From assembly GCA_001657315.1 (NCBI GenBank), contig LYSV01000025.1, positions 62,001-126,000 of the forward strand: 64,000 bases of DNA, in the 5' to 3' direction. Of the stretch, positions 13,188-44,274 are shown piece by piece. Positions within the stretch are counted from its first letter, which is position 1. Every line of letters starts with the position of its first letter. Under the pieces are notes generated by a model. The model saw nothing but the letters and a program-made list of their open reading frames with translations. It did no database searches and was not told the DNA's origin. A program made the position numbers and the translations under genes. This stretch comes from Flammeovirgaceae bacterium BBD 1991-12. Its GTDB lineage: Bacteria; Bacteroidota; Bacteroidia; Cytophagales; Cyclobacteriaceae.

Positions 13188-14072
13188 ATGAGATCAGAAA
13201 CTGAATTAAAGAATACCGTCAAAGAGCGTTATACCAAAATAGCAGAACAAGGCAAGGCTGAAAATGCCGCCTCCTGTTGTGGTGCCACTACGCCATCCAA
13301 CAAGGTGTACAATATTATGATGGATGACTATTCTGAAGTAGAGGGTTACGTATCAGATGCTGACCTGGGGTTGGGTTGTGGCCTGCCTACTCAGTTTGCA
13401 AGGATCTCGAAGGGAGACACTGTTATAGACCTGGGCTCGGGAGCAGGTAACGACTGCTTTGTAGCCCGCCATGAAACTGGACCCCAGGGTAAAGTCATTG
13501 GTATAGATTTTACCCCCTCTATGATCCATAAGGCTAGGCTGAATGTTGAAAAATCAGGCTTCAACAACGTGGAATTCAGGGAAGGTGATATTGATGATAT
13601 GCCTGTGAATGACAATGTAGCCGATGTCGTAGTCAGCAATTGCGTGTTGAATCTTGTGCCGGATAAGCAAAAAGTGATCGCTGAGATCTACAGAGTACTC
13701 CAGCCGGGTGGACACTTCAGCATATCGGATATTGTACTTATGGGTCACCTGCCACCCTCGCTAAAGGAGGATGCCGAGATGTATGCAGGTTGCATAGCGG
13801 GGGCCATACAGAAAAGTGAATACCTGGATCATATCAAAAATACCGGATTTGAAAATATTATTATCCAAAAGGAAAAACCTATAGTTATTCCGGATGATAT
13901 TCTGGCAAAATACCTGCCTGAAAATGAAGTGGCTGAGTTTAATGAAGGTGAAACGGGAATTTTCAGCATTTCAGTTTATGCAGAAAAACCCGACGCTAAA
14001 ATCAGCAAGCCAAAACTCAACCTGTCAGAATTGCAGGAAGGGCACTGTGACCCTCGTTCAGGGTGTTGCTGA
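13188..14072 (+). CDS. arsM: Arsenite S-adenosylmethionine methyltransferase
   Basis: A 294-residue class I methyltransferase. The SAM motif is DLGSGAGNDCF (81-91). The three As(III)-binding cysteines of ArsM are in place: LGLGCGLP (C64), VSNCVLNL (C152) and YAGCIAGA (C202). Extra thiols occur at the N-terminal ASCCGA (C30/C31) and at the C-terminus (GHCDPRSGCC), as in many bacterial ArsM proteins. It converts arsenite to mono-, di- and trimethyl arsenicals using SAM, in the cytoplasm. The immediate upstream arsR gene and shared promoter indicate arsenic-induced expression. No arsB/acr3 efflux or arsenate reductase gene is in the window, so this is a methylation-only resistance unit locally. 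Confidence 0.95.
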   Translation: MRSETELKNTVKERYTKIAEQGKAENAASCCGATTPSNKVYNIMMDDYSEVEGYVSDADLGLGCGLPTQFARISKGDTVIDLGSGAGNDCFVARHETGPQGKVIGIDFTPSMIHKARLNVEKSGFNNVEFREGDIDDMPVNDNVADVVVSNCVLNLVPDKQKVIAEIYRVLQPGGHFSISDIVLMGHLPPSLKEDAEMYAGCIAGAIQKSEYLDHIKNTGFENIIIQKEKPIVIPDDILAKYLPENEVAEFNEGETGIFSISVYAEKPDAKISKPKLNLSELQEGHCDPRSGCC

Positions 14073-16043: not shown

Positions 16044-18752
16044 TTACTTTTCCAAAACCACTCTGAATCCAATATTCGATTTATCGGTGGCATTTTTCTC
16101 CTCATGCAGATCCACAAAATCATAGGCGCTGTAGCCGTATACCTTCAGTGCTTCACCATCCTGGTAGTATTCTGCCACATTACCACCTATATCAAACAGT
16201 TTGGCCTTACCCGATGTGACAGGCAGGTGGCTGCCCACATTTTTGATCAGGGAACCGTCCAGCTCGCTCATTTTGGTTTTGAGATCCTGAACGTCAAATG
16301 CTGTAATGTCATAGCCTGCCCAGTGGTTGAGATTGTTCTGGCCTTTAAAGGATTTGCGCGATAGTTTGTTGAGGCCTGCCGCTTCATCGGCATTCGGAAG
16401 GCGATATGTTTTTCCTGTGGCATTGTTAAGCCATGAAAGATAGTTCGCAATATCTTCCTGGTTCAGGCCCCTCGCCGGTTCGTTGCCGTTGTTGCCAGGG
16501 ACCGCCTCGCCTCGCGAGGCATAGTACTGTGCCATGGTCACTTCAAACCGTCCAATCCCGATAGTATCTTCTCCGAGGGGTACCGTTTCAGGGATCAGTT
16601 TTCCATCCACTGTCTTACCGTAGTACCCTTGTGCGTTCCGGTTCTTTTGTACCAGTAGCTGTGCTGCCAGGGGGCTGTCTTTTTTGAAGGCCTCATTGGG
16701 ATTATCCGCTTTGTCAAAAAGATACCGGTCAAACCATTTGATCTCCTCCTTCATTTTTCGTAGCTGGTGTGTGATCTTTTGCAAACCATGGGGCTGTCCG
16801 GGAAACCAGAGGAACTTCACGGGCGCCTTACCCACCTGCTGCAGACCACGGTAATATTCCCACCCCTGATCCCGGGGTACTGCCCGGTCTTCACTGCCAT
16901 GGAAGATAATGGTTGGAGTCCGGATCTTTTCGATCTCGAAAATGGGTGAGTTATTGATGTACCATTCATTATAGTGTTTGCCATTGGTATCATCCCATGG
17001 CGCTCCTCCAAAATAGCTTTGATCAAAGGTTACCCCGAAACTGCAGGTGCCATAGTCAGAGGTCCAGTTGATATCACCGGCACCTGGAGCGGCGGCCTTG
17101 AACATATCCGGGTATTTCAGGGTCATCCAGGTAGTGAGAATGGCGCCGTTTGACCAACCCATGATACCCAGCTTATCCATATCGATCCATCCCTTGTCCT
17201 TCAGGTGCTGAATACCATTGTACAGGTCCACCTGCTCAAGGTGATAGTAGTTTCCGTTCTTAATGGATTCGATAAACTCCAGCTCATGCTGACCTGATCC
17301 ATGATAGTTGGGCTTCAGTACAAAAGCCCCCTTGTCCGTGTATATCTGCGGATAGGTGGACCAGCGCTCCGACCAGGAATCACGGTCCACACCCGTTGGT
17401 CCGCCATGAATGGACAGGATCAGCGGGTATTTTTTGTCAGGTTCGAAGTCTTTGGGGTAATACAGGATGCCATTCACTTCTTCCTCTTTCGCTCCTTTCC
17501 AGTAGATGATCTCTGACTTTGCCGTGGTTTTCTTTTTCAGACTGTTATTTAGCGCGCATAACACGCGGGCGTTGAGGACCTGAACACCCTTCTTTCCTTT
17601 TTTCAGATCAGCAACATAGTATTCCGGCAGTGATGAAGCGGTGGAATAAGTATAAAGTACCTTACCTCCTGCCCTGTCAGTATTAAGTATGGCCACGTGT
17701 TCATTTTTTTCACCTCCAAAATCCAGCTCACGCTTTTGCCATGTACTTCCGTTTTTCTGGTAAAGTAGTACTTTATGTAGCGGGCCATTGGCCATCTGTG
17801 CTAGTACATCTTCCCCGGAAATGTAGTAGTTGGCAACTCCCTTACTCCATGCCAAGGGCACCTTTTGGTAATTGCCTGTGGTCAGGTCAAAATAATATAA
17901 CCCGGATATGCCTGCTCCGTTCCATTCGGGATTTGACGACTTCACCGCCAAAAAGTAAAACCCACGGGATGAAGCAGTGAACTGCATGCTGTAGGGCGTT
18001 TGCAGGCCTGCCAGTATCTTCTTTTCAGCACCACTTTCAAGGTTTTTCAGGTAATACTTTGGTTTCGGATTGCCATCCACTCCGTAATCAGGGCTGAGGA
18101 TCAGTTGATAGACAAGGTGTTTGCCGTCCCTTGAAACAGCATAAGAACCGACCCGGTAGGAATTATTGGTGATCCTTTCGATCTTTTTCTTTTTTACATC
18201 AAAGGAATACAGCCTGCGTGGTTTCCAGTGGGCAGTGTCCTCAACGATCTGCGTATTGTCTTTTTCATTTTCTATTTCATACAACGTCTTTCCTTCTGTG
18301 GATGAATAGATCAGCACATCCTCTTTTAGCCACCGGATATTGCTGATGCCATTTTTAAATTCGTGTACTTCTTCCGCTTCACCACCAAACAGGCTCAGCC
18401 TCCAGAGCTTTTTTCCCTTGTCTCTGGAAGAAAGAAAATACAAAAATTCATTGTCGCGGCTGAAAAGGGGACTGTTATCACTCTCCTTGTTACTGGTCAG
18501 TTGAAAGGTCCTGATCTTGTCTTCCTGTGTAAGATCCAGCCTGGCAAGATAAAGGTCATTGACAAACTTATCTTTCTCCTTAAGCCCTTTTCTTTGCCTC
18601 CAGACCACCATCCTGGCGTCAGGAGAAAAGGCAGGGCCATAGACATACTGAGTATGGATAATATCCTCCGGGGTCCATTCAGTTTTCTGAGCGGACAGCC
18701 GAAATACAGGTAACAGAGCAATGATCAGTACGAAAAGAGCAGTGGATCTCAT
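16044..18752 (-). CDS. S9-family peptidase fused to a C-terminal sulfatase-modifying-factor-like domain
   Basis: 902 residues from the ATG at 18752; the frame extends 45 codons further upstream, but only this start exposes a signal peptide (MRSTALFVLIIALLPVFRLSAQ). Residues 25-410 form the DPP-IV/oligopeptidase beta propeller (FSPDARMVVW, FSRDNEFLYFLSS). The alpha/beta-hydrolase domain has nucleophile S534 in GWSNG, acid D622 in HGSED and H655 in GQPHG, all intact. From about 720 to the end is a SUMF1/FGE-type C-lectin fold: IGRFEVTMAQYYAS, YRLPNADEAAGL, GGNVAEYYQDG and the closing IGFRVVLEK. S9 peptidases of about 700 residues normally stop before this. Probably periplasmic, cutting proline-containing peptides; the extra domain may be non-catalytic (no FGE Cys pair seen). 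Confidence 0.92.
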   Translation of the reverse strand: MRSTALFVLIIALLPVFRLSAQKTEWTPEDIIHTQYVYGPAFSPDARMVVWRQRKGLKEKDKFVNDLYLARLDLTQEDKIRTFQLTSNKESDNSPLFSRDNEFLYFLSSRDKGKKLWRLSLFGGEAEEVHEFKNGISNIRWLKEDVLIYSSTEGKTLYEIENEKDNTQIVEDTAHWKPRRLYSFDVKKKKIERITNNSYRVGSYAVSRDGKHLVYQLILSPDYGVDGNPKPKYYLKNLESGAEKKILAGLQTPYSMQFTASSRGFYFLAVKSSNPEWNGAGISGLYYFDLTTGNYQKVPLAWSKGVANYYISGEDVLAQMANGPLHKVLLYQKNGSTWQKRELDFGGEKNEHVAILNTDRAGGKVLYTYSTASSLPEYYVADLKKGKKGVQVLNARVLCALNNSLKKKTTAKSEIIYWKGAKEEEVNGILYYPKDFEPDKKYPLILSIHGGPTGVDRDSWSERWSTYPQIYTDKGAFVLKPNYHGSGQHELEFIESIKNGNYYHLEQVDLYNGIQHLKDKGWIDMDKLGIMGWSNGAILTTWMTLKYPDMFKAAAPGAGDINWTSDYGTCSFGVTFDQSYFGGAPWDDTNGKHYNEWYINNSPIFEIEKIRTPTIIFHGSEDRAVPRDQGWEYYRGLQQVGKAPVKFLWFPGQPHGLQKITHQLRKMKEEIKWFDRYLFDKADNPNEAFKKDSPLAAQLLVQKNRNAQGYYGKTVDGKLIPETVPLGEDTIGIGRFEVTMAQYYASRGEAVPGNNGNEPARGLNQEDIANYLSWLNNATGKTYRLPNADEAAGLNKLSRKSFKGQNNLNHWAGYDITAFDVQDLKTKMSELDGSLIKNVGSHLPVTSGKAKLFDIGGNVAEYYQDGEALKVYGYSAYDFVDLHEEKNATDKSNIGFRVVLEK

Positions 18753-18873
18753 GATAGTTATTGGTCTGGTTATTTCGGTTAAATATAGAAGTAATTGTGA
18801 TTTTTTAGTCTTTTTATTATACGTCCGGTAGGATGATCCATGAATCGGCGAACAGATCCGTTGCGAATCCGGA

Positions 18874-19254
18874 TCAATCCCTCCCAACCATATCCAGAAG
18901 TCTGGCCATAGCAGGATATACCTGTTTTATTGAGGATAGTCCCCAAAAACTTTTTCTTACATGGTTAAGGTCTGCCAGAGTCACTTTCCGGGCAACTCCT
19001 ACCTGTATGTAAGTGGCGATCGCTGATCTCAATGTAACAGCCTTTACACGGATACAGTGTGCGCTGTACCACGCCGGATGAATGTGTATATAACGGACGG
19101 CATCATCACCTTTCCTCAGTACCCATGAGGACTGGTCAGACAATATTACTATAGCATAGCCATTGTTTTCACTCAGGTATTGAAGGTATTTTTTCTTTTC
19201 CAGCAATAGCTTTCCTTTCAATTGAACTATGATCTCTCGGGTAATATCCGGCAC
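18874..19254 (-). CDS. Hypothetical protein, 126 residues
   Basis: I recognise no family. The 126-residue frame starts MPDITREIIVQLKGKLLLEKKKYLQYL and ends AMARLLDMVGRD. It has no signal peptide or membrane segment, is basic, and alternates a helical N-terminus with a short beta region (YAIVILSDQSSWVLRKG) and a helical end. Its likelihood as a real gene rests on the lack of a competing frame once the S9 peptidase start is placed at 18752, on even amino-acid composition, and on the same strand as both neighbours (121 bases to the peptidase). It could be an orphan gene or a relic. Confidence 0.45.
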   Translation of the reverse strand: MPDITREIIVQLKGKLLLEKKKYLQYLSENNGYAIVILSDQSSWVLRKGDDAVRYIHIHPAWYSAHCIRVKAVTLRSAIATYIQVGVARKVTLADLNHVRKSFWGLSSIKQVYPAMARLLDMVGRD

Positions 19255-21668: not shown

Positions 21669-22544
21669 TCAGCCCCCACCCAGCTGAAAGGTGCGTGTTA
21701 TATTAAACCCAAAATGGATATCTCCTTCAAAAAAGTCTCCCGTGGTTTCGCTGATGAATCCTTTTTCTATCATGGCCCTGGAATTGGTCAAATGCAGTTG
21801 GAATACATGACCTCCGGTTTCGATATCCACCCCTACGGCCAATGAGTTATAGGTTTCCAGTGTTTCCAGCGGGTCCAGTTGATAGTGATATTCCAGATTC
21901 AGCGCCAATCGCTGGCTTATTTTGAACCTGCCTGCCAGCCCCATGGACCAGTGGTCGTGCGGATCCTCATCTGCCTGTACTATGTTCCGGTGTATCCATG
22001 TGGGAGCCAACTGGAGAGACAACCTCGAACCGAACTTCCTTGCTACAAGAAGTTGCGCCGTATGGACCATCCTGGCAGAAAAATCAGGTTTGTCCTCAGG
22101 GTCGTAGTCTTTCAGTGTTTTGACGGTAGAGCTCATGAATAAGGTGGAAGAAAAGGGAAAACTGATCGTGCCCTTGCTCTGACGCATCAGCTTGTACTTT
22201 ACAAATCCATCGAATGTCTTCTCAAAAGAACTCCGCCCTACTCCAAGGGTCAGCCGGTCATGGGCAGCATATTCCAGACCAAACCTGACATTGGCCTGAT
22301 CCAGCCCGTACAGCTCGTAACTTCCGGAATTGAGCCTGCCGAATCTGTGGGCAATAATAAACTCCAGTGCCCCCTTCTTCCGCGTCTCAATCGAGTGTCC
22401 ATTGATGATTCTGCTGCCCTTGAAGGTAGCCTCCGTATAATCTGTAAAATCAGGAGACTCCTGCTCCAGCAGGTCCAGCAGGTCCTGTGCAGGTAGCAGA
22501 AAAGGCAGGCACATGATGGCCAGCAGTGTCAATGCCTTTCTCAT
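21669..22544 (-). CDS. DUF5777-type outer-membrane beta-barrel protein
   Basis: A 291-residue protein with signal peptide MRKALTLLAIMCLPFLLPAQ. The sequence after the leader, FKGSRIINGHSIETRKKGALEF and IAHRFGRLNSGSYELYGLDQA, is what I associate with the Bacteroidota DUF5777 family. Alternating hydrophobic strands (NVRFGLEYAAHDRLTLGVGR, LSLQLAPTWIHRN, RLALNLEYHYQL) and a C-terminal strand with terminal aromatic (FNITRTFQLGGG) support a small outer-membrane barrel. Last gene of the five-gene operon: its start is one base from the stop of the YceI gene. Proposed role: outer-membrane partner or pore for the redox/lipid-binding proteins encoded with it (inference). Confidence 0.82.
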   Translation of the reverse strand: MRKALTLLAIMCLPFLLPAQDLLDLLEQESPDFTDYTEATFKGSRIINGHSIETRKKGALEFIIAHRFGRLNSGSYELYGLDQANVRFGLEYAAHDRLTLGVGRSSFEKTFDGFVKYKLMRQSKGTISFPFSSTLFMSSTVKTLKDYDPEDKPDFSARMVHTAQLLVARKFGSRLSLQLAPTWIHRNIVQADEDPHDHWSMGLAGRFKISQRLALNLEYHYQLDPLETLETYNSLAVGVDIETGGHVFQLHLTNSRAMIEKGFISETTGDFFEGDIHFGFNITRTFQLGGG

Positions 22545-22545
22545 A

Positions 22546-23100
22546 TCATTGATATATTTTATGCTTGAGGTTAAGGCTTACCTCCACGATCTCGGCAATG
22601 TTACGGGCCACAACAGAGGGTACTTCAATGTCATGATCTGCCACCTTTACACGGAATTTTCCTACCACATGGATCACCCCACCTACTGTGCTCATTTCCA
22701 CCATGGTATTTAGTTTTTGTGTCACACCATGAATTGTCAGTTCTCCCATGACCGCTATGCGTTGTGGTTCGCTTCCAAGCTGCTTCACTGCCTCCGCAGG
22801 CTGCAGCTTTCCGGTAAACTGAGCCTTGGGGTATTTGTCCGATTCCACGTAATTTTCATTAAAATGCTCCTGCATAAGGGATTTTTCAAACTCAAAGGCT
22901 TTCATAAGCATAGACACAGCTACCTCACCCGTTTCCAGATCGAGGATACTTACCACCTGCTTGTTATGAGCTTCTATATCCTCCAGCGGAGCGCCGGAGA
23001 AAAAAGAAATCTGACCATCTTTTGTAATGTATTTGTTCTGAGCCTTAAGAGCGCCTATGGTGATCAATACCATGGCCAGGGCTATCATTGTTCTTTTCAT
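22546..23100 (-). CDS. YceI-family periplasmic lipid-binding protein
   Basis: A 184-residue protein: signal peptide MKRTMIALAMVLITIGALKAQ, then a lipocalin-like YceI barrel (YITKDGQISFFSGAPLEDIEA, FEFEKSLMQEHFNENYVESD, KYPKAQFTGKL, GELTIHGVTQKLNTMVEM, FRVKVADHDIEVP). The motif KYPKAQF and GELTIHGVT are family hallmarks. YceI-type barrels bind long isoprenoids or amide lipids. The fourth gene in the operon, 33 bases after the OB-fold gene and one base before the DUF5777 gene, which argues for translational coupling. With cytochrome-like and repeat lipoproteins in the same operon, binding of a quinone-like isoprenoid is plausible but unproven. Confidence 0.93.
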   Translation of the reverse strand: MKRTMIALAMVLITIGALKAQNKYITKDGQISFFSGAPLEDIEAHNKQVVSILDLETGEVAVSMLMKAFEFEKSLMQEHFNENYVESDKYPKAQFTGKLQPAEAVKQLGSEPQRIAVMGELTIHGVTQKLNTMVEMSTVGGVIHVVGKFRVKVADHDIEVPSVVARNIAEIVEVSLNLKHKIYQ

Positions 23101-23133
23101 AATTTTTAAGTGTTCAAGAGTTTATACTGTTAA

Positions 23134-23571
23134 CTATTTCATGCTCAGGGCATTCAACTGGTTGACCACAATGCACCTTACCAGCACCACATCCAGAAGG
23201 TAGCCGGTACATATTCCCCGGATGGAGATCTCATTACCTACTTTAATTCTGCCAGGCATTTCACGCATACCCGTCATCACACATCTCACGGTCTCAGGAT
23301 CATCCGTAACACCCAGCACTATGACCGTCTCGTCATTATCCGTAGTGAGGGACTTTACTTTTCCCGTCACTTCCAGCACTTTATTCAGATAAAGTTGATT
23401 GGACTCCTGCTCATTTTCACGAAAGGACCGGATCAGCGCCATGGCACGGATATGGTATTCGGCCTTATGGGTGGAAACATCCAGATGAGGCTTATTGTAC
23501 ATTCTGATGCCGTAAATAACAGCACCAATACCTACTACAAGCACGACCAGCGTTAATTTTACTATTTTCAT
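23134..23571 (-). CDS. Membrane-anchored OB-fold (tRNA_anti-like) protein
   Basis: A 145-residue protein with one N-terminal membrane anchor (MKIVKLTLVVLVVGIGAVIYG) and a periplasmic OB-fold: AMALIRSFRENEQESNQLYLNKVLEVTGKV, ETVIVLGVTDDPETVRCVM and RIKVGNEISIRGICTGYLLDVVLVRCIVV. The order of helix, Y-x-x-K-x-x-E-V-x-G-x-V strand and final GxCTGYxxDVxxxRC is that of the Bacteroidota OB-fold tRNA_anti-like family. Two or three Cys (in VRCVM, GICTG, VRCIV) may form a disulfide or bind a ligand. Two bases separate its start from the cytochrome-like gene, so the two are coupled. Function unknown; nucleic-acid binding is unlikely in the periplasm. Confidence 0.85.
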   Translation of the reverse strand: MKIVKLTLVVLVVGIGAVIYGIRMYNKPHLDVSTHKAEYHIRAMALIRSFRENEQESNQLYLNKVLEVTGKVKSLTTDNDETVIVLGVTDDPETVRCVMTGMREMPGRIKVGNEISIRGICTGYLLDVVLVRCIVVNQLNALSMK

Positions 23572-23573
23572 GA

Positions 23574-23912
23574 TCAGTTATTCAGAGCTCCGGCATCTAC
23601 CCAGCAGGTGATCTTCTCTATTTGTTCTGAGGTGAGCGTTCTGCCGATGGGCATGGACCGGTTTCCCGTTCGTATTTTTATTCTTTGCGCATTTTGCTGA
23701 ACACCGGCCACGGTGGTCAGGTTAGGGAACCGGGTTCCATCATGACATCCAGACACGGCACAGTTTGCCGCTATGATCGGCTGTACATCTGCATTGAAAC
23801 TCACTGTTGCACAGTCATTCGGAGGGAGCTGAGGCTCCTGCTCTTCTTCCACATCGTAGGTACAGGACATTACCAGCAGACCTGATACCAGCATCGCACA
23901 GATTGTTTTCAT
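23574..23912 (-). CDS. Cytochrome c-like lipoprotein with CX4CH motif
   Basis: 112 residues from the ATG at 23912. A GTG at 23978 extends the frame, but only 23912 exposes a lipoprotein signal (MKTICAMLVSGLLVMSC). The mature part is a single small domain: ATVSFNADVQPIIAANCAVSGCHDG, then a loop and RSMPIGRTLTSEQIEKITCWVDAGA. The haem site would be C-AVSG-CH, that is CX4CH rather than CX2CH, with Met in RSMPIG as candidate axial ligand and a W-hAGA end typical of cytochrome c domains found in Bacteroidota. Probably an outer-membrane or periplasmic electron carrier. Sits 62 bases after the repeat lipoprotein gene in the same operon. Confidence 0.82.
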   Translation of the reverse strand: MKTICAMLVSGLLVMSCTYDVEEEQEPQLPPNDCATVSFNADVQPIIAANCAVSGCHDGTRFPNLTTVAGVQQNAQRIKIRTGNRSMPIGRTLTSEQIEKITCWVDAGALNN

Positions 23913-23974
23913 TTTTCCAAAAAGCTTTAAGAAAGGGGGAGGCAGATAGCCTCCCCTGTCAAACATCCTCATTT

Positions 23975-25567
23975 TCACTGTGCCGGTGCCGTGTCTTTAT
24001 TAGCAATGGGCCAGACACCGGGTTCGGGAAATGCTATCCCCTTGTTGCTCCCCCTTTGTTGATTGTCATCTCCGTAATAATAGAGCGGCCAGCCTTTGTA
24101 GGTCAGTTGCTTTCTTCCATGTACATCGATGCTTCCGAAGTCATTCTCATTCAGTATCGACGGGATACTGTTCAGGTCTACCGTCTCGAAAATGGGCCAA
24201 ACCTTATTGTTGCCGTTCTCAAAATCAGGTTCCGTAAAATTGTTTTTGTCTTTGGTGTCATTCACCCAAGTATAGAGCGTACGCCCCTGAGCGTCGGTAA
24301 TGTAGTAGGTAAGCTCCTGTCCAGGTTCGTAGTTGCTGTTGTATTCCACTCCGTCAATACCTACCAGTTGTGCCTGAGCGTACATGAGCGAATAGTCGTT
24401 CTTAGCCACGAACCACTTGTCTCCCACACCTTCTCCTTCGGCGTCTCCCGGTTGGGTGTCTCCGGCAAAGTAGTACAGCGGCCAGCCGTCATAGGTCGTT
24501 TGTTTGGCGCCATCCTCCCGCGTGATACTGCTGAATTTTGCAGCGTCAAGCCCTTCGCCTACCTGCAGCTCTTCTCTGTAAAAAACAGGCCAGGTGGTCA
24601 GGCAATCTCCCTCGCAGGCGGACTCACCATTGACATCTTCCGAAAAGAAATACAGTGTCCGTCCACGAGCGTCTGCTATTACTGCTCCGAGATCGACTAC
24701 TCCGGCCAGTTTAACATTGGGTCCTGCCTGAGCTTCTTCCAGGTCCGTATTAGCTATCGGCCAGATGCCAGGCTGTGGAAAGCTTACGCCTTTGGTGCTT
24801 CCACGCTGGAAATTGTCCTGCTGGAAATAATACAGGGGCCATCCCTTATAGGTCAGTTGAGGTACACCAAGTTGGTTATCCGTGGTCATATCAAAGTCTT
24901 CCATACTCAAAATACTCGGCACTGCCTGAAGCTCCTCATAAAAGACAGGCCACGTGGCCGGATCAAGAATGTACTGGCTTATACCATTTCTGTCCGGCAC
25001 AAAGATGTAAAGTGTATTTCCGTCAAAATCAGTAATAAACGGAGTAAGCCCGGGGCCTTCCTCATAGTTTCCATTATACTGCTTACCGTCTTCACCTACC
25101 AGCTGAGCCAGGGCATACATGAGCGAATAATTCGGTTTGGCTACAAACCATTTCTCCTGTGCGCCATCTCCGTTCGTTTCACCTGGGGCGGCATCATTTA
25201 CAAAATAATACAGCGGCCAGCCATTGTAGGCAATCTGTCTTGAACCATCTGATCTTGTGACCGTAGTAAACAGATTGGCATCCAGCCCTTCTCCCACCTG
25301 CAGGTCTTCCTTAAAGAAGACGGGCCAGTTTTCCAGGCAGGCACCCTCGCAGGTAGGTTGACCAGCTACATCTTCACTGAAAAAATAGAGCGAATTGCCC
25401 TCACCATCCGTCATGATGTTCCCAAGGGTGGCGTTACCCACCAGTTTTACATCAGCCGACGGTACTATGGGATCTTCACCCCCGTCATCGTCACCACAGG
25501 CGCTTACAAACAGAAGAGCCGGTAATGACAGCATTAAAAGTGTGCTTTTAAACCATTGCATTTTCAT
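23975..25567 (-). CDS. Lipoprotein with four PF03640-type secreted repeats
   Basis: A 530-residue lipoprotein (MKMQWFKSTLLMLSLPALLFVSAC, C24). Four copies of the YxFxxD / GWPLYYF repeat appear: YFFSED with GWPLYYF (61-122), YIFVPD with GWPLYYF (187-248), YFFSED with GWPLYYF (about 305-368) and YTWVND with GWPLYYY (about 430-500). They form an A-B-A'-B' pattern: residues 40-280 and 285-530 are copies of one two-repeat unit, so a recent internal duplication. Only A units keep the Cys pair CEGxCLxxWPVF. The family (secreted repeat, Lipoprotein_15) has no defined role; it often sits near redox proteins. First gene of the five-gene operon, divergent from the AraC-type regulator. Confidence 0.9.
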   Translation of the reverse strand: MKMQWFKSTLLMLSLPALLFVSACGDDDGGEDPIVPSADVKLVGNATLGNIMTDGEGNSLYFFSEDVAGQPTCEGACLENWPVFFKEDLQVGEGLDANLFTTVTRSDGSRQIAYNGWPLYYFVNDAAPGETNGDGAQEKWFVAKPNYSLMYALAQLVGEDGKQYNGNYEEGPGLTPFITDFDGNTLYIFVPDRNGISQYILDPATWPVFYEELQAVPSILSMEDFDMTTDNQLGVPQLTYKGWPLYYFQQDNFQRGSTKGVSFPQPGIWPIANTDLEEAQAGPNVKLAGVVDLGAVIADARGRTLYFFSEDVNGESACEGDCLTTWPVFYREELQVGEGLDAAKFSSITREDGAKQTTYDGWPLYYFAGDTQPGDAEGEGVGDKWFVAKNDYSLMYAQAQLVGIDGVEYNSNYEPGQELTYYITDAQGRTLYTWVNDTKDKNNFTEPDFENGNNKVWPIFETVDLNSIPSILNENDFGSIDVHGRKQLTYKGWPLYYYGDDNQQRGSNKGIAFPEPGVWPIANKDTAPAQ

Positions 25568-25975: not shown

Positions 25976-26782
25976 ATGATCAGTACCTATACCGGCCTGG
26001 AGCTGGACGATTCCTTTTCTGTATCCAGGTACCTCCTTGAAAATGACATTGAGGTATTGGGTATTTCGAACTGGCACAGGTCCCGTCAGTTTCTACTGTA
26101 TGTACCCAAAAATGTGATCAACTACGTAGTAGAAGGACAGAAACGGATGTACTTCAAAAAAAGACTTATCTCCATGAAAAAAGGGGATCTGATGTTCATT
26201 CCGGCAGGGTCATACATTTTCTCCGATGTGACCCGGAGCCCTTCTTCATTCAAAAGTGCCAACATTCTGCTTGACGAGAGAGTATTCAGGATTGGAGAGA
26301 AAGGTTCCAATAACGGGCACCGTGCACAACATTCACATCTTCTTAAGGACCTCATCGCCCGATTGCACAGACTCACCCGAAGCGAAATAGAACTTGAGGA
26401 AATGTTACCGGTCATTGAAAGGGCCATGACCAAACTGCCTGTTCAGCATGAGTCATCAGAGGATGAGATCCGGTTTAAGACTATTGTAAATCTATGTCTT
26501 GGTGACTCAAGGACATTACCGGAGTTTGCCGGGGAGTGTAACATGAGCCTGGCTACTTTCAAGCGTCACTTTACGGCGGCCTTCGGCACTGCTCCAAAGC
26601 AATGGGTACGCGAGAAGAAGCTGGAAATCGCCGACTTCTTATTGAAAACCCACAAACTCTCTGTTACCGATGTCTGTTTTAAGGCCGGCTTTGAAGATGT
26701 TTCCCATTTTATTCAGCTCTACAGGAAACAGTTTGGTGTCACACCCAAACAATCATCCCTGCAGACAAGCAACCATATGTGA
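25976..26782 (+). CDS. AraC-family transcriptional regulator
   Basis: A 268-residue protein. Residues 1-140 are a cupin-like sensor part (VYVPKN-type strand LLYVPKNVINYVVEGQKRMYF and KGDLMFIPAGSYIFSDVTRSP), and residues 165-262 carry two HTH motifs: LPEFAGECNMSLATFKRHFTA and LSVTDVCFKAGFEDVSHFIQ, ending YRKQFGVTPKQ, the AraC signature. The N-terminus resembles the ExsA-like group rather than sugar-binding AraC. No signal peptide; cytoplasmic. Divergent placement suggests control of the 25567-21669 operon. The T9SS gene at 26836 follows after 53 bases and might be read from the same transcript. Confidence 0.9.
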   Translation: MISTYTGLELDDSFSVSRYLLENDIEVLGISNWHRSRQFLLYVPKNVINYVVEGQKRMYFKKRLISMKKGDLMFIPAGSYIFSDVTRSPSSFKSANILLDERVFRIGEKGSNNGHRAQHSHLLKDLIARLHRLTRSEIELEEMLPVIERAMTKLPVQHESSEDEIRFKTIVNLCLGDSRTLPEFAGECNMSLATFKRHFTAAFGTAPKQWVREKKLEIADFLLKTHKLSVTDVCFKAGFEDVSHFIQLYRKQFGVTPKQSSLQTSNHM

Positions 26783-41705: not shown

Positions 41706-44051
41706 TTAATTGTCAGATACAAATTGAGAAAATCGTTCCTCGAATGCATTAAGTTCTTCTTCCGTGGCAAATCCTGAAAAAAAACCAATGGCGAATTCAA
41801 GTTGTACATGGGCCTGCAGATAATCATAAACAGACAATGCATACGCCAGCCGGGCATTCAGGGCTGCCTGCTGTGCGTCGATCAACTGTGTAATGGTAAC
41901 AAGGCCCTGCTGGTAGTTATCCCTGACCAATGCGTAATTGTCCCGGGCATTGTCAGAAGCAATTTTACTGAACCCAATGTTGGTGGATGTATTCAGGAGC
42001 TCGAGTGCCCTGCTTCGAACGGCCAGTTCAAGGTTCAGGTCCAACTGTTGTCTGGAGTAATTGAGCTGCTCCAGTTGCAGGTTGGATTTTTCGATATTGG
42101 CTTTTCGGTTAAGCCCCTGAAAAAGGGAGTAGTTGAGTGACAGCCCCACCTGCCATGAGTTGTCAAAAAACTCTACCTCCGGTGTTTCTACGGAACCTTT
42201 CCCTCCCCGGTCAAGTATCTGGTCCGTTTGCGCCTGAAGCGCCACCTGAGGGACAAAAAATAAGCGTTTGTTCTGTAACTGTTCACGTTCCGTGGCCTTT
42301 ATATTTTCCAGTAAAAACTGCTTGTTGGGATTTCCGGTTACAGCCTCCTGTACCAGAAAGTCACTGACTTTTCCAAAGTCATCCGGGGTCTTTACAAATT
42401 CCTCCATGGCGCCGGACTGAAATTCCCTGAAGGTTTCGCCGTCAATGCTGATATCCTCTATGTCAAACTCGTCTTCCAAAGTATTGGCAAGGAACGTATT
42501 CAGCTGAAGTTTAGTGGAAATTACTCCGGTTTGTGCTTCCACTACGCTTTGTTTGGCTGTAGCCACCTCACTTTCCCATCGGTACAGTTCTGCCTTGCTG
42601 GATGATCCGAGTGTTACGCGGATCTTGGCCAGTTCCAGATTCGCTTTTGTATTCTTCAGATTCTCCTGCTGGACCAGTAAGTTGGTCTTTGCGGCCAGCA
42701 GGTTAAAGTAGCTGGTGTAGGTATCCAGCAGTACCGCCAGTATATCGCTCTCGGTATCGAACTCCTGGGCCTTCATAAGATGGTGAAGTATCTTAACACC
42801 TGCAATCGCCTCCTCGGAGTAAAGCAGCTGGGTCAATCTTAACTGCCCGGTCAGCGTTCTTTCTGATGACCCAATGGCCGGATTTGCACGTTCATCATTG
42901 ATCTGCGCCCCGGCAACTGACATATCCAATGCAGGCAGTAAAGCACTGCGGGCATTAATGATCTCCTGTTCTGCCAGATCAATGTCCCGGTAACTTACCT
43001 TAATATCGAAGTTAGCCTCCAGTGCTTTTTGCATGATTTCTTCCAAGGAATAGTAAGGCTGATCCCTGGCATCACCATCAATGAGATTGGCTGTAAAAAT
43101 GATCTCGAATGGAGGAGAAAGGCCGATTTCCCTGGCGGTTTGCAGATTAAGGTAAAACTCCTGCTTATGATTAATAACCACAGGCATATCCTGTAATCGT
43201 TCGCCCGTAAAAACTCCATCGGCCATGATCGCCAGCTTTCTTATGGCCTGGTCCAGGCCATTGTCATCGGAGATACTACCCAGTATCCCCTCATCCACAT
43301 GCCATTTGGTCGCTGAAAATGACGGCAGTTTCTGCCTTTTAAGTTCATCTGCTATCATTCGGATATTGCTGAAGCTTTTGGTGTAGAGCTCGGTAACATA
43401 TACCGCATCGGTACCCGGCGGAAGTGACTGGAGAGACGCTAATGCATCATTGCCAACGGGCACCACATTTATGATAGTTGACAACGACTGGCTGAGCGAG
43501 TCGAGTGTTTTGCCGGCCTTTTCCTCATTGAATGTTATGGCTGAGCCTTCATCCACCAGCAACGTCAGATTTCTGAACTGGTGTAACCTGTTGAACTGTT
43601 CGATCTCCTTTCTAAAATTCTGAGCTGCCCAGATGTAGCTAAAATTACTGACACCGGATTTCCCGTTATTGAAAGGGATCTCCTGCAAACCCGGGTCGTA
43701 AATACCAAGTCCTATGGTAGGTGTACTGAACCCGGTCGATAATGCGCCCTTGGTGCTTACACTGCCAATCAAAATGACCAAACTGACTTTAGGAGCAATA
43801 AGGTTGTAATTGGTAGCGGCCTGTGACAGACTCTGTGTACTGTATATGATGTCATCGGCAGCCAATGTGACTTCCCTGGAAGCACCGGTAGTCCTGTCGA
43901 TCTCATTGACCATAACCTGAATGACAGAATCCACAATTGCTGATCTATCAAAATCGGTCACAATGCCTATAGGAGTGTTTTGGGCAAAAACACAGCTAAG
44001 ACTGACCAAATAAAATAATATTAAGAGCTGAAGGTTTTTCTTTGCTAGCAT
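41706..44051 (-). CDS. ABC_sub_bind domain fused to TolC-type outer-membrane efflux protein
   Basis: 781 residues from the ATG at 44051, which gives a signal peptide (MLAKKNLQLLILFYLVSLSCVFAQ); an upstream ATG at 44093 is less likely. Residues 25-330 match the ABC_sub_bind/TrpX periplasmic-binding fold: IGIVTDFDRSAIVDSVIQVM, PGTDAVYVTELYTK, FSATKWHVDEGILGSIS, FTGERLQDMPVVI and the family tail LNLQTAREIGLSP. From about 340 the protein is an outer-membrane efflux protein with two OEP repeats (YSLEEIMQKALEANFDIKVSYRDI; DNYALVRDNYQQGLVTITQLIDAQ). TolC proteins are normally 430-490 residues. First gene of the efflux operon; the binding domain may sense or load substrate at the tunnel. Confidence 0.9.
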   Translation of the reverse strand: MLAKKNLQLLILFYLVSLSCVFAQNTPIGIVTDFDRSAIVDSVIQVMVNEIDRTTGASREVTLAADDIIYSTQSLSQAATNYNLIAPKVSLVILIGSVSTKGALSTGFSTPTIGLGIYDPGLQEIPFNNGKSGVSNFSYIWAAQNFRKEIEQFNRLHQFRNLTLLVDEGSAITFNEEKAGKTLDSLSQSLSTIINVVPVGNDALASLQSLPPGTDAVYVTELYTKSFSNIRMIADELKRQKLPSFSATKWHVDEGILGSISDDNGLDQAIRKLAIMADGVFTGERLQDMPVVINHKQEFYLNLQTAREIGLSPPFEIIFTANLIDGDARDQPYYSLEEIMQKALEANFDIKVSYRDIDLAEQEIINARSALLPALDMSVAGAQINDERANPAIGSSERTLTGQLRLTQLLYSEEAIAGVKILHHLMKAQEFDTESDILAVLLDTYTSYFNLLAAKTNLLVQQENLKNTKANLELAKIRVTLGSSSKAELYRWESEVATAKQSVVEAQTGVISTKLQLNTFLANTLEDEFDIEDISIDGETFREFQSGAMEEFVKTPDDFGKVSDFLVQEAVTGNPNKQFLLENIKATEREQLQNKRLFFVPQVALQAQTDQILDRGGKGSVETPEVEFFDNSWQVGLSLNYSLFQGLNRKANIEKSNLQLEQLNYSRQQLDLNLELAVRSRALELLNTSTNIGFSKIASDNARDNYALVRDNYQQGLVTITQLIDAQQAALNARLAYALSVYDYLQAHVQLEFAIGFFSGFATEEELNAFEERFSQFVSDN

Positions 44052-44274
44052 GATGGTTTCGAAAGAAGTTATCAATAAGATAGTAAAAATCATTAACTAA
44101 CTCATAGCAGCCAAAGATTTCGTTGTTGGCCAACTTCGTGCTTATAGCTACCATTTTGAAAATCAATGAAATACCTGTACCTTTTTCACAATTTTTGAAC
44201 TGACCCTTTCCTGTGATTTGACTTACAACGCCTGTTGTATGCCACGTCCAGGGGGATTGGAACACAAAAAAATA

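Follow-up and report, generated by a model that had tools for sequence, protein, structure and literature searches.

A candidate outer-membrane redox module of Bacteroidota, combining a DUF5777 barrel, a YceI-family protein and a one-electron carrier

We analysed a 64,000-nt stretch of the 8.6 Mb genome of Flammeovirgaceae bacterium BBD 1991-12 (contig LYSV01000025.1, G000:C4:62001-126000; hereafter the window), which carries a run of five minus-strand genes ending in a gene for a DUF5777-family protein (Table 1). The run encodes a repeat lipoprotein (LP15), a lipid-anchored c-type cytochrome (CYT), a membrane-anchored OB-fold protein (OB), a YceI-family protein and the DUF5777 protein, and the open reading frame (ORF) calls gave successive gaps of 62, 2, 33 and 1 nt, as stated in the original prediction, which was made from the sequence alone. 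For the cytochrome we took as start the ATG that gives a lipobox (23912), while the mechanical ORF list has a GTG at 23978.

The families named in the original prediction were recovered by Pfam over the cut-off for LP15 (249 bits), OB (68.4 bits), YceI (50.8 bits, gathering threshold 23.7) and DUF5777 (317.4 bits, gathering threshold 23.1). The sole Pfam match of the cytochrome, Cytochrome_CBB3 (PF13442, 19.8 bits), lay under its gathering threshold of 27; despite this score, its identity as a CX4CH cytochrome was borne out by the CAVSGCH site, the later Met-Pro and the lipobox. The host genome had three matches above the cut-off to the cytochrome c assembly family. The AraC-type gene is divergent from the run, as had been noted; it is a possible local regulator and at most a candidate member of the module.

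Table 1. Positions of the genes and the hairpin at the locus (window numbering)
Feature	Position	Strand	Basis
LP15, Lipoprotein_15 / SCO0930-type repeat lipoprotein, 530 aa	23975..25567	-	PF03640, NF040526
Hairpin (8 bp, 7 GC) followed by CTTTCTT, in the LP15-cytochrome gap	23936..23956	-	
CYT, lipid-anchored monohaem c-type cytochrome (predicted)	23574..23912	-	CX4CH (CAVSGCH), Met-Pro, Trp, lipobox
OB, membrane-anchored OB-fold (tRNA_anti-like) protein	23134..23571	-	PF12869
YceI, module-type subfamily of the isoprenoid-binding YceI barrels	22546..23100	-	PF04264
DUF5777, predicted 12-stranded outer-membrane barrel	21669..22544	-	PF19089, AlphaFold2
AraC-type regulator, divergent	25976..26782	+	PF12833, 72.7 bits

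Co-occurrence of the genes across Bacteroidota

Gene neighbourhoods were compared at 155 DUF5777 loci, 75 of them from 60 genomes that belong to the family of the window genome and 80 from named genomes, the latter being the best 80 of at least 585 confirmed matches. Locus genes were our own ORF picks, and these loci also served to build the family profiles; neighbours were clustered by single linkage of BLAST matches, and one or two representatives of each cluster were scanned with Pfam. DUF5777 was present in 52 of the 60 family genomes. Its commonest neighbours were the cytochrome, YceI and OB, then an extracytoplasmic function (ECF) sigma factor and then LP15 (numbers of loci: DUF5777 154, YceI 129, cytochrome 125, OB 53, ECF sigma factor 26, LP15 24), and a LytTR protein (cluster 7) was found at 17 loci.

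Same-strand runs were counted wherever 2.5 kb or more of sequence lay upstream of DUF5777, which left 146 genes. YceI was present in 125 runs, the cytochrome in 113, a Rieske protein in 14 and either carrier in 126, with lower counts for OB (58), LP15 (22), ECF sigma factor (18) and NrfD (5). The cytochrome and YceI occurred together in 96 runs and with OB in 50, and all five families in 16. The family part (65 runs) contained YceI in 52, a carrier in 58, OB in 8, LP15 in 5 and all five in 2, and the named-genome part (81 runs) in 73, 68, 50, 17 and 14, respectively. The unbroken order LP15-cytochrome-OB-YceI-DUF5777 was found at 14 loci, the window's own counted, including Sinomicrobium, Tenacibaculum, Aquimarina, Arenibacter and Fulvivirga. 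Isolates of Polaribacter and Aquimarina are among the carriers of the module. Median gaps, measured from the furthest start codon, were -4 nt between YceI and DUF5777 and 11 nt between the cytochrome and YceI. Control genes lying more than 6 kb away (n=495) seldom had such neighbours within 2.5 kb (YceI 8, module-type cytochrome 4, LP15 7, OB 1), indicating that the neighbourhood of DUF5777 goes beyond chance.

On a broader scale, a phylum-wide sample of 296 genomes contained DUF5777 in 115, a sample of 195 genomes from another class had it in 112, and all 14 control genomes lacked it. We also hand-picked 40 further loci across the phylum, mostly from other families, of which L232 and L243 were dropped since no DUF5777 ORF was called there. 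The remaining 38 had a carrier in 33 cases (cytochrome 31, Rieske 1, fusion 1) and YceI in 27, and a cupredoxin was present in two of the other five. A set of 30 short loci, whose genomes partly overlap those of the 40, had YceI in all 30, a cytochrome in 26, a Rieske protein in one and a cupredoxin in one. Judged by these neighbourhoods, the core (cytochrome, YceI and DUF5777, often with OB) is a genuine module that recurs throughout the phylum. The five-gene module of the original prediction is thereby corrected to the last four genes as the conserved unit: co-occurrence was clear for the carrier, YceI and DUF5777, partial for OB (58/146) and weak for LP15 (22/146), with all five in 16/146. 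The window genome also holds a second module (L054, G000:C30:62736-76878) comprising genes for an ECF sigma factor, an outer-membrane-like protein, a cytochrome, YceI and DUF5777.

By profile score the module YceI is a subfamily of its own, since in the window genome its profile gave 243.7 bits for the window protein and 241.5 for the copy beside the other DUF5777, and at most 27.5 for any other YceI. Module-type YceI occurred in 48 of the 60 family genomes, all 48 with DUF5777, and was absent from all eight genomes that lack DUF5777 (Fisher p 1.9e-7, a value that ignores kinship). Sixty of 66 counted copies, which leave out the second piece of a broken copy in G003, lay within 5 kb of a DUF5777, although the profile was trained on the YceI genes of DUF5777 loci and so leans toward linkage. 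The same profile matched solved YceI proteins (E down to 2.9e-6), a family that binds polyisoprenoids according to the names of Protein Data Bank (PDB) entries. At L048 the module YceI is broken by stops, and the cytochrome and DUF5777 remain. In OB, Cys97 and Cys121 were each conserved at 0.95 in 62 rows, and the protein probably faces the periplasm.

Carriers, fusions and the predicted barrel

Among 171 cytochromes, the 93 rows of 100-150 aa had C51, C56, H57, M87 and W104 at a frequency of 1.0, while the spacing of the haem site varied (CX4CH only in 70, CX2CH only in 71, two or more sites in 26, CX3CH in 2 and none in 2). By these residues the window protein is a c-type cytochrome with a C-Xn-C-H haem site, where haem attachment is predicted, and a distal Met (M87). 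Among PDB sequences the cytochrome profile matched FoxE, a photoferrotroph protein, best (E 1.2e-8); 98 distinct PDB sequences, many of them small cytochromes, were matched at E up to 1. Similar cytochrome domains were also seen inside long ORFs (445-1094 aa) of the same genome (G000:C67, C2, C151, C157 and C33).

The cytochrome is not the only protein found at its position. A Rieske [2Fe-2S] protein stood in its place before YceI at 13 family loci of one clade (representative PF00355, 47 bits), and a plastocyanin/azurin-type cupredoxin lipoprotein lay directly before YceI-DUF5777 at L257, L258 and L273 (PF00127, 43.6-55.2 bits). In a tree of 144 of 234 DUF5777 barrels, entered as all non-cytochrome rows plus every second cytochrome row, 16 of 17 Rieske rows fell in one supported clade that also encloses two rows with no recognised carrier, the remaining Rieske row (L059) having both cytochrome and Rieske genes. 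Cupredoxin rows fell in one supported group of five, which includes a cytochrome row and a carrier-less row, and the fused rows described below clustered with support of 39 for the fork of fused rows alone and 100 when one unfused row was included. The occupation of one gene position by three unrelated one-electron proteins is the strongest argument for electron transfer as the shared function. The lipid cysteine is followed directly by at least two acidic residues, resembling the lipoprotein export signal of PMC5080379, in 86 of the 109 cytochromes whose lipobox was recognised, 15 of 15 Rieske proteins, 10 of 11 LP15 proteins and 66 of 143 other lipoproteins, a hint that the carrier is surface exposed.

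In six genomes the cytochrome and barrel are fused: at L228 (7989-9254) and L294-L298 a CX4CH haem domain is followed by DUF5777 in one protein of 410-440 aa. The DUF5777 part scored 152-172 bits with Pfam in the three proteins scanned, and the fused proteins had no NCBIfam match. When 148 relatives of G089 were searched, seven full-length matches came up, G089 itself counted. In the fused forms the first Cys is preceded, at a distance of one residue, by FAR, FER or FEQ. L294 and L295 share a common upstream layout, which in L294 comprises genes for a molybdopterin oxidoreductase, a di-haem MauG-type peroxidase and MbnP. YceI was absent from the nearest genes of the fused loci, of which L296 and L297 lie near contig ends.

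DUF5777 itself was confidently predicted to be a 12-strand outer-membrane barrel (AlphaFold2, 12 long strands, mean predicted local distance difference test (pLDDT) score 90.8). The best structural neighbours of the model were FapF, KdgM and NanC (Z 17.4-18.0), and since these sit among many barrels the fold gives no function. We found no mention of DUF5777 or PF19089 in the literature searched. Two histidines, His66 and His246, were conserved at 94-100% in each class tested, fused forms included.

A sub-branch links the cytochrome and barrel to NrfC/NrfD-like genes. At L083, L084, L086, L087, L103 and L108 the cytochrome-DUF5777 run contains a DsrO/NrfC-like 4Fe-4S protein and an NrfD/DsrP-like membrane protein, although the cut-offs of the DsrO and DsrP models were not reached; at L089 the Fe-S gene is present and the locus ends there. 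L233, L250 and L252 have the same set without YceI. Several loci of this branch also have a small cytochrome c. Directly upstream of the cytochrome, L084 (790-2211) encodes a nine-haem lipoprotein whose MtrC/MtrF-like domain reached 65.2 bits against a cut-off of 30, while a six-haem protein of L083 scored 25.9 bits, under that cut-off. At L246-L248 the cytochrome-DUF5777 pair has downstream of it a protein of 341-345 aa that contains two haem sites.

A putative redox role and competing explanations

Taking into account the carrier swaps, the cytochrome-barrel fusions and the NrfC/NrfD-like links, a redox role is likely, and we propose, with a probability of about 0.55, that the core genes form an outer-membrane redox module consisting of a barrel, a docking one-electron carrier and YceI as carrier of a lipid-like redox molecule. 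In many Bacteroidota, such a module would probably handle electron movement at the cell surface. The lipid-anchored one-electron carrier, here the CX4CH cytochrome, would dock on the DUF5777 barrel, and YceI would be the periplasmic carrier of the redox molecule, most likely menaquinone, giving electrons to, or taking them from, the carrier at the barrel, with putative electron transfer at the outer membrane or through it. YceI may be assisted at the inner membrane by the membrane-anchored OB protein, LP15 would be an optional surface partner, and a quinol oxidoreductase may stand in for YceI in the NrfD branch. The original prediction is partly supported: a module with a redox role at the outer membrane has good support for the core, from co-occurrence, carrier substitution and fusions, electron traffic across the membrane, in whichever direction, is hypothetical, and an isoprenoid or quinone as YceI ligand is suggested by the YceI family only.

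Several observations weigh against this proposal. A single haem cannot span the membrane alone, and 20 of the 146 runs had no recognised carrier. Seven of these were second OB-YceI-DUF5777 sets in Flavobacteriaceae, located some kb away from the main operon and on the other strand (L116, L117, L119, L129, L130, L131 and L142), and L136 and its near-copy L137 encode a protein of no recognised kind at the carrier position. Quinone shuttling by YceI is not universal, since the fusions lack it nearby and, among the nine NrfD loci, only L108 has it in the run. The fusions place the haem domain ahead of the first strand, normally the periplasmic side, which is in tension with the hint of surface export for the carrier. 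Finally, strand parity puts both His66 and His246 on the lipid-facing side, where they belong to a conserved seam formed by strands 11, 12 and 1, and we therefore dropped the idea that these near-invariant residues are haem ligands in the lumen; part of the seam may be a signal for the β-barrel assembly machinery (BAM).

An explanation that we consider unlikely is an envelope antioxidant system, in which YceI would bind a quinone or oxidised lipid in the periplasm and a lipid-anchored carrier would re-reduce it; this would shield the outer membrane against peroxyl radicals, as proposed for BcnA/LcoA, and the barrel would act as scaffold or exporter of damaged lipid. BcnA is a member of the YceI family. 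According to PMC9113575 it is a secreted bacterial lipocalin linked to a cytochrome b561, both of which protect against lipid peroxidation, so that system likewise pairs a periplasmic lipid-binding barrel with an envelope haem protein; ECF sigma genes in 18 of the 146 runs would also suit such a role. The module differs from it in having a dedicated outer-membrane barrel and a lipid-anchored c-type cytochrome, Rieske protein or cupredoxin, and no cytochrome b561 was found among the Pfam-scanned neighbour representatives, not every neighbour being scanned. Moreover, the NrfC/NrfD and MtrC-like links suit respiration better than repair. A role in making an isoprenoid or lipid, or in moving it across the envelope, with the redox protein acting on this molecule and electrons not being the cargo, appears very unlikely: it fits the polyisoprenoid binding of the YceI family and the predicted resemblance of DUF5777, at fold level only, to the transport porins KdgM, NanC and FadL/TodX, but the substitution by three unrelated one-electron carriers points instead to electron transfer.

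Oxidation of a metal or small molecule, in which the barrel would admit a reduced substrate (Fe(II) or similar) and the carrier would take the electron inward, as in Cyc2, is in our view quite improbable. FoxE as best match of the cytochrome profile speaks for it, but the profile also matches many small cytochromes, and the hosts, we assume, are mostly heterotrophs. As described in PMC8406198, Cyc2 also combines a monohaem c-type cytochrome with an outer-membrane barrel, and the fused DUF5777 forms share this layout and its haem-then-barrel order. However, Cyc2 is a 16-stranded porin, whereas 12 strands are predicted for the window DUF5777, a figure that refers to the window protein and not to the fused forms. 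Cyc2 is fused, while the module is usually two genes with a lipoprotein cytochrome, with CX4CH in its fusions; the module also has a YceI partner, which the passages considered there do not name for Cyc2, and other carriers can replace its haem protein. The Cyc2 motif described there, AXPXFAR[Q/K][T/Y], five residues before CXXCH, had no counterpart in the window cytochrome when read by eye, and the FAR, FER or FEQ of the fusions is a partial likeness with other spacing. MtrCAB likewise has an outer-membrane barrel with its own cytochrome, and the NrfC/NrfD-like genes of the sub-branch and the MtrC/MtrF-like lipoprotein of L084 are further likenesses; it is, however, a multihaem cytochrome in a 26-strand barrel, compared with one haem and 12 predicted strands in the window, and the module carrier is mostly one-haem or non-haem. 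A simple assignment to Cyc2 or Mtr was dropped because of strand number and motif.

If electron movement at the outer membrane is indeed what the proposed module provides, porin-cytochrome redox would be widespread in Bacteroidota; to our knowledge, the phylum is not usually counted as electroactive. For the YceI family this would mean a function open to testing, that of quinone shuttle, which, if it served an outer-membrane barrel, would make this a new class, beyond a variant of porin-cytochrome systems. The carrier swaps offer a natural test set. That the module is a new outer-membrane electron-transfer device, with a 12-strand barrel, interchangeable cytochrome c, Rieske or blue copper carriers and quinone delivered by a dedicated YceI, is a possibility we hold only tentatively. 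In that case a soluble isoprenoid carrier, and not a haem chain, would bridge the periplasm, and ordinary Bacteroidota would gain an extracellular electron route.

LP15, transcription signals and other window genes

LP15 passed the NCBIfam cut-off for SCO0930 lipoproteins (NF040526, 284.8 bits, cut-off 275), while a Fulvivirga relative scored 249 bits, under it. It is about twice the length of many relatives (282-289 aa compared with 530 aa), looks like two tandem halves of ~240 aa, and differs from SCO0930-type lipoproteins in sitting beside the module. Its predicted structure had a mean pLDDT of 78.4, mostly above 90 in the C-terminal half. Foldseek gave no PDB fold match at E<=0.001, a result that speaks neither for novelty nor for function, and a known fold was dropped. 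SCO0930 / Lipoprotein_15 lipoproteins, which we take to be COG4315, had no described function that we could find. As just five of 15 LP15 genes in the 60 family genomes lay within 5 kb of DUF5777, compared with eight of 11 for OB, LP15 was rejected as a core part and is best regarded as a loose accessory. At L197, L198, L199 and L200, LP15 repeats stood behind an N-terminal part that we presume to be FAS1-like, or next to such a gene.

Terminator-like sites in the stretch examined numbered nine, compared with 4.4 expected. The hairpin between LP15 and the cytochrome, which has a weak T tail, is possibly a partial terminator or processing site. Comparably strong stems were found 3' of LP15 in 5/25 cases, CYT in 7/171, OB in 3/62, YceI in 8/151 and DUF5777 in 20/158, and, given the hairpin and these frequencies, LP15 may be expressed differently from the other four genes. 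The view that the five genes are almost certainly one transcript is therefore less sure for LP15, the gaps themselves being as stated. In the divergent region, a Bacteroidota-type consensus gave one -7-like match toward araC and none toward the operon, and a promoter of this type was rejected; sigma-70 matches (9 compared with 6.6 expected) were uninformative.

Elsewhere in the window, the minus-strand gene at 41706-44093 encodes a 795-aa protein, presumably TolC-like, with an extra N-terminal part resembling a substrate-binding domain, and adjoins RND efflux genes. We take the product of 16044-18887 (-) to be prolyl-oligopeptidase-like, with a part resembling formylglycine enzyme at its C terminus, and that of 13188-14072 (+) presumably resembles an arsenite methyltransferase.

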